This document shows positions 2,912 through 16,655 of a stretch of DNA of 64,000 bases, piece after piece. Under the pieces are notes generated by a model. The model was not told the DNA's origin. It searched no databases and was given only the letters and a program-made list of their open reading frames with translations. The stretch comes from Neolentinus lepideus HHB14362 ss-1 (Eukaryota; Basidiomycota; Agaricomycetes; Gloeophyllales; Gloeophyllaceae): contig KV425551.1 in NCBI GenBank assembly GCA_001632425.1, forward strand, positions 544,996 through 608,995, read 5' to 3'. A program made the translations under genes and the position numbers. Each line of letters begins with the position of its first letter. Position 1 is the first letter of the stretch.

Positions 2912-3745
2912 GTGATGTAGTCTAGACCAAATTAGGACTGTCAGCATATATGTGTGTGCTAGCCTTAGTCATCCAGGACCAGTTCCGAACGGCAACCTAA
3001 GCAATGTTAAAAGTCGAGTTGGCTCAGCACGAGTGCAGCCAGAGTCGCCACCATCGCACGATGTTCGACTCTCGAGTGCCGCTGGCGCTGCAACTTGGCT
3101 GCAACTCTTGCTTAGCGCATCAGTGTGCCAGTGCTTTTCTGCGCGTCGGCGAGTCCGAATAGAGCTCAAACTACCCACGCCACAAGTTGAAAACGTCGCT
3201 ATCGAATTTGCCTTGTGTCCCTCGGACTGACTAAGCCAGACAGTATTGTAGTATTTACCTGAAGCTGTGGCCTTGGGATATGGGCCAGCAACCCTTGCTT
3301 TGGCTTGGGTGGTACCTTTTGGCCTGACTTTACTGCAGCTGCATTAGCTACACCACGTGGCGCGGGCACAGCTTTTGTGGGCCACTTCAAGCTTCAAGAC
3401 CTGTATCTCGACGAAACGAGCACCGAACAACATCATTCAAAGTGCTAATACTATCCTTAGAAGTAATAATACAGTTTTAAATTAATATATTTGACGAGTA
3501 ATGCATTTTAAAGCTGAAAAAAGCGATGTATCTCAAATTAAGTTTCAATTCTAGTCAAAATTGACATTAACATTGTGTTTGTGAATGGAAAACTGCAGCT
3601 ACCTGGAGAAAACTTGATGTATATGTTGAACACAGTAACAAATGAATTTACATTCTTTTTTCTGACTGAAAAAGCATTGGCTCGTCGTGCAGAAAGCCAC
3701 CCACGTCACGTGATGGTCCAATACTGTATTGGAACCGGACTCAAT

Positions 3746-3828
3746 AGAGGATCGAACCCGCAAGCTGGTTTGCAAATGGAAAGTCGAAACCGAGTTTGAA
3801 TTTGACCTGTCCCAAATGGTCAACCGTA
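3746..3828 (-). repeat. Right terminal inverted repeat
   Basis: Read on the minus strand it begins TACGGTTGACCATTTGGGA, matching the left repeat with scattered substitutions. The B-box-like GGTTCGATCCT is also conserved here. Confidence 0.75.
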
Positions 3829-4615
3829 TCCGTGGTAAAATATGCAGTTTACGATTATCCGGAAAGATAACGGAACACTTTAGCGTTACTGAAACAGGTA
3901 CCAAGGATATTGGAAGGATTGTACTGAAAGTCTACAAATCAGATCTGTAGAGATTGAAGGGCTTAATCTTGATGCCGAAAACCTCCAGAGGGTCTCCTCG
4001 CAAGCTTGATCACAGTCCTTGTGTTGGGTAAGTCCCTCGCTGAGGATATATATGCGACACTGATTTAATAGCAACAAAAATTTACCGATGGCGTCGTAGC
4101 TGTGCGACAGCCAAAGTTGGTCAGATTCAATCGTCTTGAAGAGGCGCCACATGTGACCTTCATGTCGAAGTCCAATGCGATTGTGTCTCGGATGCAATTG
4201 TAATTTCCTTGCTGCTTGAGGTTATTTCAATGTACCACAGTTGTTCTCGTCGCAAATGGTACTGCACCGCAATTGTCAGCCAAGTCGGAGCAGCTTGTAG
4301 AAAGGTCTCGAGCCAAAATCGAGTCGAAGAATGAACTTGAGCCTCGTTTAAAATGAGAGTCACTTGGACACGGATTTAGTTGAAGTCCAAGCGTGAGGGT
4401 CGTGACGTACTGCTCAGAGCTCGCATGCTCATCACCTAAACGGAAGCTTTGAAGGTCCAGAAGGAGATTTAAAAGCTGGAGGTATGCATAGTAATTATCT
4501 TAACTAATTGAAGTGTTAATAACATGTGTATCCCAGGCACAACTGTTTGCTCGCAAAGCGCGACAAAAGCGAACTAGTGTGAAGGTCAAAGCCGGGCGTT
4601 CTTTCAGGCGATGAC

Positions 4616-15289: not shown

Positions 15290-16655
15290 CTAGTATGGGA
15301 CCTCGTCAAACAGTTTCGACACGCTCTCTCCGTAGTGGCTCCGTCTAATCACCTCGCCCAGAACGTTCCCAATGTCTATCACCTCGATCTTGTTGCATCG
15401 CTCCTGGTTCTCCGCCTGCGGCAAGGTGTTGGTAACCACAAGCTTCTCCAGCGCACTGTTCTCCAGCTTCTGCAACGCATTCCCGCTCAGAATCCCATGC
15501 GTTACGAAAGCATAGATTTTCGAAGCGCCCGCTTCTGAAAGATGCTGGGCTGCCAAACACAGTGTACCGCAGGTATCCGCCATATCGTCAACAAGTATGG
15601 CAACCTTGCCGGTCACACTACCAACCAGCACCATCCGCGAGACCTCATTGGCCTTTTTCCGCTCTTTGTGGAACAGCGCGAAGTCAACACCTAGCCGGTC
15701 CGCCATCGAGGTGGCTCTGATTATGATACATATTAGTTATCAACACCAAATATACCATCCTGCACAACACACCTCTTGGCGCCTCCAGCGTCCGGTGACA
15801 CGATTACAACATCCTTGGTGTCAAAATGCGAACGGATGTATTGAGTGACCGAAGGCTCCGCGTATAACTTAAGACGTGCAGATAGTGATCGAAATGACCC
15901 ACGTGTGAAGGTCAAACTATAATAGATCAATGGGCGCTACTTACACTGCGCAATCAAACGTTTGCGATGAGCATCTATGTACTGCAAAGTCTGCTATGAC
16001 ACGTACTTGTCAACCGGGACGTCAAAGAATCCCTGTATTTGAGAGGCATGCAAGTCCATGGTCTTCATGAAACAAAGATACGCTTTAGTGAGCTCAAGTA
16101 GGACAGATATTGCCAGTATGCTTACAATGACGTGGTCGCATCCACTCTTTTGGATCATATTAGCCACTAACTTGGCTGTAATAGGCGCACGGCTCTTGTC
16201 CTTCTTGTCTTGTCTAGCGTACATAAATAATGGCAATACGGCAGTGATCCGTTTTGCACTTGCGATTTTGCAGGCGTGAATCATGATACAGAGCTCCATG
16301 AGTGCGGTGTTCACCGATGTCGCGGACGGGGTCGGGGACGGGGAAGGAGAGGTGATGATGTATACATCGTCAGAGCGCACTGATTCAGCTATCCGAACTT
16401 GCGTTTCGCCAATGCCAGAGCGAGAGACATGCGCTTTGGAAAGCGGGATGCCTAGCCTGTGATCCCGAAATGTTAACGTCGATCCTGCTCCGGAGAAATA
16501 GCACATACCGTCTGGCGATGACCTCGGCGAGTTCGGGATGGCTGGTGCCTATGGTACCCCGTTGCAGCGCACTGTCAGCAAGCCATAGAACACTGCCGGC
16601 ATCAATAGCCAGCTCACATACCACTGAATAGTTTAATCCCAGTACCGTTGAGCAT
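15290..16655 (-). CDS. Ribose-phosphate pyrophosphokinase (PRPP synthetase)
   Basis: Makes phosphoribosyl pyrophosphate from ribose 5-phosphate and ATP for purine, pyrimidine, His and Trp synthesis; cytosolic. Exons 16655-16622, 16548-16509, 16456-16126, 16062-16007, 15945 (one base), 15867-15773 and 15716-15290 give 327 residues. Family marks: [101 protein letters not shown], the PRPP loop [11 protein letters not shown], and C-terminal [18 protein letters not shown]. The joint VDN-LYAEPS needs one extra base between two introns, and A at plus-strand 15945 (T in the mRNA) supplies exactly the conserved Asn. Between VYIIT and ALMELCIM the usual short GSG-type loop is replaced by a Ser/Pro/Thr run. 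Confidence 0.93.

Follow-up and report, generated by a model that had tools for sequence, protein, structure and literature searches.

Comparison of a 64,000-nt stretch of Neolentinus lepideus DNA (the window) with related proteins indicated that the single T at position 15945 is very probably a constitutive 1-nt exon of a PRPP synthetase gene. Both the frame and a conserved residue depend on this base: the coding sequence measures 984 nt with it (stop codon counted) and 983 nt without it, and the tripeptide VDN that it completes is present in 72 of the 73 short-contig relatives listed in our protein searches. A sequence-only reading of the same DNA had treated the case as peculiar to one gene; the comparison suggests that it is common to many Agaricomycetes.

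The gene occupies the minus strand from 16655 to 15290 and comprises seven exons, including the 1-nt exon 5. Judged by its predicted product, it is a PRPP synthetase (ribose-phosphate diphosphokinase) gene: residues 7–326 of 327 matched the solved "Ribose-phosphate pyrophosphokinase 2" (E value, 1.7e-125), and a protein search returned entries of Gloeophyllum trabeum and Heliocybe sulcata with 95% identity over the full length, for which the domains PF00156, PF14572, and PF13793 are listed. Alignment to these two entries (P0001 and P0002, respectively) placed exon 1, with the start codon, at 16622–16655 (this and all following features on the minus strand). Intron 1 (16549–16621, 73 nt), exon 2 (16509–16548), intron 2 (16457–16508, 52 nt), exon 3 (16126–16456), and intron 3 (16063–16125, 63 nt) precede exon 4 (16007–16062), which ends with GTT GAC AA (phase 2) before GTACGT. 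Intron 4 (15946–16006, 61 nt) runs from GTACGT to GCGCAG and is followed by exon 5 (15945–15945), assigned from the sequence and from the VDN of the relatives as the last base of AAT, the codon of Asn-154. Intron 5 (15868–15944, 77 nt) extends from GTAAGT to CTTAAG, and exon 6 (15773–15867) begins with TTA TAC GCG (phase 0). Intron 6 (15717–15772, 56 nt) and exon 7 (15290–15716), with the stop codon TAG at 15292–15290, complete the gene. Introns 1, 2, 3, and 6 are of the GT-AG type, and all introns of the gene together amount to 382 nt.

Two further features of this gene were observed. Exon 3 (16456–16126) encodes a 15-residue stretch where most aligned relatives have NTGCGAVN; it is 7 residues longer. 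Since G. trabeum and H. sulcata have the longer form as well, a low-complexity insertion specific to the Gloeophyllales is possible. Intron 3 (16125–16063) is 63 nt long and open in frame, so that it lies with exons 3 and 4 in a single open frame of 184 aa. Because its length is a multiple of three, retention of intron 3 would leave the frame unshifted.

When the T at 15945 is included, the 327-aa frame stays open and reads VDN-LYAEPSV across the joint; when it is skipped, the frame shifts and a stop follows after 20 further codons. Inclusion of the T would thus be needed for a functional enzyme. The local architecture described in the sequence-only reading was found again: the exon ending in FFDVPVD plus AA stops at 16007, the exon starting with TTA TAC begins at 15867, and their phases are off by one. 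Between them, the T stands as CAG/T/GTAAGT (GCGCAG/T/GTAAGT in full), with AG upstream and GT downstream, as fits a 1-nt spliceosomal exon. The exons sum to a multiple of three only with this base, as had been claimed, and the flanking introns of 61 and 77 nt are normal for a gene whose other four introns measure 73, 52, 63, and 56 nt.

Alternative splice paths were enumerated across the joint. Four canonical internal exons of length 3n + 1, up to 59 nt long and with both introns of 45 nt or more, were found, and only the T was free of stops. Single canonical introns with a donor in 16050–15950 and an acceptor down to 15840 gave 11 in-frame, stop-free paths, none of which puts VDN directly before LYAEP. 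The AAT codon predicted for the joint was supported, the 1-nt exon being the sole canonical GT-AG path found with VDN directly before LYAEP. In stwintrons and recursive splicing, adjacent or nested introns are removed stepwise and a splice site is regenerated. A stwintron, with an internal intron inside an outer splice site and all of it removed, was rejected for the window gene, since excision of the whole of 16006–15868 reduces the coding sequence to 983 nt and brings in a stop. Unlike in stwintrons, one base would stay in the mRNA here, between two introns that are each complete and canonical. The probability of finding such a site by chance was estimated from 264 kb of this genome on both strands (528,000 strand-positions), where AG[T/C]GT sites whose donor scored no lower than that at 15945 occurred four times, this site included. 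For the 49 admissible positions, at which both introns would be at least 45 nt long, 0.0004 such strong sites and 0.08 AG[T/C]GT sites of any strength would be expected.

Splice sites were scored with a model trained on 34 introns with the PRPP synthetase gene masked, which is rough, above all for acceptors; two earlier trainings, on 156 groups with many random ORFs and then on 12 groups, were poor and were discarded. GTACGT (7.62) and GTAAGT (6.86) were the best two donors of 16 GTs in 16062–15840, the training median being 7.14. The claim of a good acceptor did not clearly hold: GCGCAG ends in CAG, yet its score of 0.93 falls below the 5th percentile (3.45) of the training introns. The score is lowered in part by exon base +2, a position taken by the G of the next donor, and the intron 6 acceptor of the same gene, though supported, scored −1.23, which shows that the acceptor model is weak. 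In intron 4, CTCAT lies 22 nt before the end of GCGCAG with no AG in between. The branch-point-like motifs of intron 5 lie 38–44 nt from its end, which is rather far; the nearest suitable ones in introns 1, 2, 3, and 6 lie at 16–26 nt.

The residue at the joint was compared in more distant proteins. A scan of viral contigs with a PRS alignment found 98 relatives, of which 80 were kept (37–47% identity), none of them close to the fungal gene. The aligned residue was H in 54, N in 15, and D in 11, and never K. The joint sequence VDN-LYAEPSV is obtained with the T as claimed, but it is not the invariant family sequence that the earlier reading had taken it for; since K is absent from these homologues, a codon beginning with AA at this place should be Asn. 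The solved PRPS1 and PRPS2 chains, which we take to be human, have VDNLYAEP, and the Asn of this joint presumably corresponds to N144 of PRPS1. A search of the genome (33.8 Mb in 168 contigs) found only one other PRPP synthetase–like gene, which reads VDNLYSEP uninterrupted with the Asn codon AAT. This second gene (contig C72:33000–42000, at about 3119–4436) has several introns, none of them at the VDN joint. In a table of one report, N144S of PRPS1 appears among leukaemia mutations (PMC7403961).

Three protein searches, with the VDN form, a Stereum VDKY annotation, and a Sphaerobolus VDK annotation as queries, each gave the best 120 of about 7,990 matches, and together they listed 159 distinct proteins. 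Seventy-three of these came from "jgi" or "lgn" contigs only, with longest contigs of 963–6274 bases; the other 86 had NCBI among their sources, those of Laccaria bicolor and Moniliophthora roreri also having lgn contigs. The contig exceeded the coding sequence by less than 370 bases, and thus by less than the 382 intron bases of the window gene, in 59 of the 73 short-contig proteins listed, and by at least 370 bases in 14 (P0005 and P0095 included). As the contigs leave little room for introns, we infer that this group derives from spliced RNA. Thirteen of the 73 left less than 120 bases, and all 13 have VDN; the one short-contig protein listed without VDN has VDS. The listed NCBI entries (n = 86) comprised six with VDN, 31 with VDK (one as VDK-CYAEP), 24 with VDK plus one residue, 13 in which VDN is absent, three with VDNVS(D), and nine with other changes. 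The difference between the two groups at the joint among the matches listed gave a Fisher's p of 8e-37, related species not being independent. Against the 1-nt exon, the two nearest relatives are annotated without VDN, as VDK in G. trabeum P0001 and VDKY in H. sulcata P0002. The seven species looked up were all Agaricomycetes, from the Gloeophyllales, Hysterangiales, Geastrales, Boletales, Russulales, Atheliales, and Polyporales. A pattern scan for DNA that encodes GFFDVPVD and continues with AAGT gave no matches in viral contigs (viral_contigs) or prokaryote contigs (genome_contigs).

The nearest pairs drawn from the two groups, whose members, to judge from their identity, would be the same or sister species, were also compared. 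P0005 (113 contigs) and Postia placenta P0012 differ at one of 320 residues, N to K, and so do P0095 and Pleurotus ostreatus P0109 (319 of 320 identical). Between P0092, whose contig exceeds the coding sequence by 109 bases, and Suillus clintonianus P0131, the missing VDN is the only difference, and the joint is likewise the only place of difference between P0003 and Leucocoprinus leucothites P0026. N is replaced by KW in Fomes fomentarius P0135 relative to P0114, with one other residue changed, and by KY in Stereum hirsutum P0087 relative to P0046, with four others.

These annotation patterns can be read from the genetic code as products of misplaced splice sites in the gene models. A one-base slip of any GT...AG intron that follows GACAA creates the codon AAG, so that K is the expected artefact. 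If the second GT of a GTRNGT donor is used, the sequence becomes AAG TRN and K is followed by W, Y, or C, as in the 24 one-residue insertions among the listed NCBI entries (13 W, 8 Y, and 3 C). A donor at CCN/GT would remove VDN. Where the T and GTAAGT are read as coding, N-V-S results, as annotated in Lyophyllum shimeji, Tricholomella constricta, and Rhizopogon vesiculosus. In six insertions the last residue before LYAEP or LFAEP is K or Q, as expected if an AAG or CAG acceptor had been retained. In total, 46 of the 86 listed NCBI annotations (24 + 13 + 3 + 6) put the Leu codon immediately after the downstream acceptor (phase 0). P0015, P0026, and P0029 (two Leucocoprinus and one Macrolepiota) read YS before LYAEP, which misfits a phase-0 acceptor; the S suggests an AG/Y acceptor and a single intron there, and in these fungi the loss of one of the two introns may have abolished the 1-nt exon.

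Judged from DNA alone, the strongest competitor of the 1-nt exon is a single 90-nt intron from the same donor to an acceptor ending at 15917 (TATTATAG), which would give VDN, 16 inserted residues, and LYAEPSV. This path is canonical GT-AG, in frame, and stop-free, and its acceptor scores 5.22 against 0.93 for GCGCAG. No such insertion was seen in G. trabeum, H. sulcata, or the 73 listed short-contig proteins, and the sole unobstructed branch-point-like motif lies 10 nt from the AG, the next one, at 37 nt, having three AGs before the intron end. Comparison and branch-point spacing, not the acceptor score, thus make it very unlikely. A one-base assembly error, for example a missing T after TTAAG, would also restore the frame with a single 139-nt intron. 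Given that gene models from many independently sequenced species break down at this joint, the 46 annotations with a phase-0 acceptor among them, and that a full T/GTAAGT site at the right place would be a coincidence (0.0004 expected), we consider such an error more improbable still.

Two readings take the annotations of the relatives at face value. A donor four bases downstream (AAGTAC/GTGTCA, 16002) joined to 15867 gives VDKY-LYAEPSV in frame and with canonical sites, and VDKY is what P0002 and other annotations read. This donor scores −0.4 against 7.62 for the overlapping GTACGT, K followed by Y, W, or C occurs in none of the 73 listed short-contig proteins, and P0114 and P0046 have VDN where their annotated partners have KW or KY, which together leave this path hardly any probability. 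The least credible reading, to which we give almost no weight, is a true Lys, with splicing displaced by one base to non-canonical sites (TA-AG or GT-AA). VDK does stand in 31 of the 86 listed NCBI entries, including that of G. trabeum, with its 95% identity. Against it, K is found in none of the 73 listed short-contig proteins and none of the 80 distant homologues, the N versions from Postia and Pleurotus are otherwise identical, and a one-base slip after GACAA should always produce this very residue.

In the preferred reading, that of a 1-nt exon, two short GT-AG introns would lie one base apart, one splitting the Asn codon after its second base and the other directly following the codon. 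The spliceosome would remove introns 4 and 5 by intron definition, the natural route for introns of 61 and 77 nt, and probably one after the other, because the two splice complexes could scarcely sit on a single base simultaneously. Removal of intron 4 first would yield the intermediate AAT/GTAAGT and removal of intron 5 first GCGCAG/TTTATAC; either order would end in GAC-AAT-TTA-TAC. The exon could have originated by two intron insertions one base apart.

Exons of one nucleotide are known in plants, Fusarium, and mitochondria, and the PRPP synthetase case adds to this known kind; a mitochondrial one has reportedly been published for placozoan cox1 (PMC5436844). In plants they have been published for APC11 and VPS55 (PMC4674806; PMC8831610), and stepwise removal has been proposed for Arabidopsis APC11 (PMC4674806); the passage on 1-nt exons in another paper merely cites the Arabidopsis work (PMC8208691). 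The plant exons resemble the present one in being a single base between spliceosomal introns, kept over a large clade and mostly missing from annotations, in that skipping changes the frame, and, for VPS55, in the reported donor GTRAGT. They belong to other genes and another kingdom and come with RNA-seq, RT-PCR, or reporter proof, whereas the present case is argued from sequence comparison. CYP621A of Fusarium has a 1-nt exon that its authors call the first for a fungal gene (PMC12940212). As here, it is a nuclear gene whose two introns are short (spanning 139 nt in F. graminearum, as in the window gene), the base lies inside the codon of a conserved motif, and an intronless family member serves as a length marker. 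That exon, confirmed with SRA reads, concerns one ascomycete genus, a rarely expressed P450, and the base G (AGGGT), whereas the window gene is a housekeeping gene with the base T in basidiomycetes, apparently of several orders. Fungal mitochondrial rnl introns at the adjacent sites 576 and 577 leave one A between them, and some relatives have only one of the two (PMC12308204). They provide a model for the origin of such an exon, but they are group II introns in a mitochondrial rRNA gene, neither spliceosomal nor coding. Searches of open-licence literature brought up no 1-nt exon in Basidiomycota or in a PRPP synthetase.

The protein fingerprints at the joint make it likely that the 1-nt exon is common across Agaricomycetes, where it is probably widely misannotated and would have a common origin. 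That it was already present in the agaricomycete ancestor and was kept because its inclusion is regulated, skipping or mis-splicing leading to an early stop and mRNA decay and so helping to set the PRPP supply, seems rather unlikely. At present, 80 of the 86 listed NCBI entries are without the residue seen in the apparently spliced sequences. Gene-finding software appears usually to miss this exon, on which, if it is real, gene predictors and RNA aligners could be tested. It would also offer a natural system in which to compare spliceosomal handling of a 1-nt exon and the gain and loss of such exons, and it would mean that a housekeeping gene in much of a fungal class depends on splicing in a single base.
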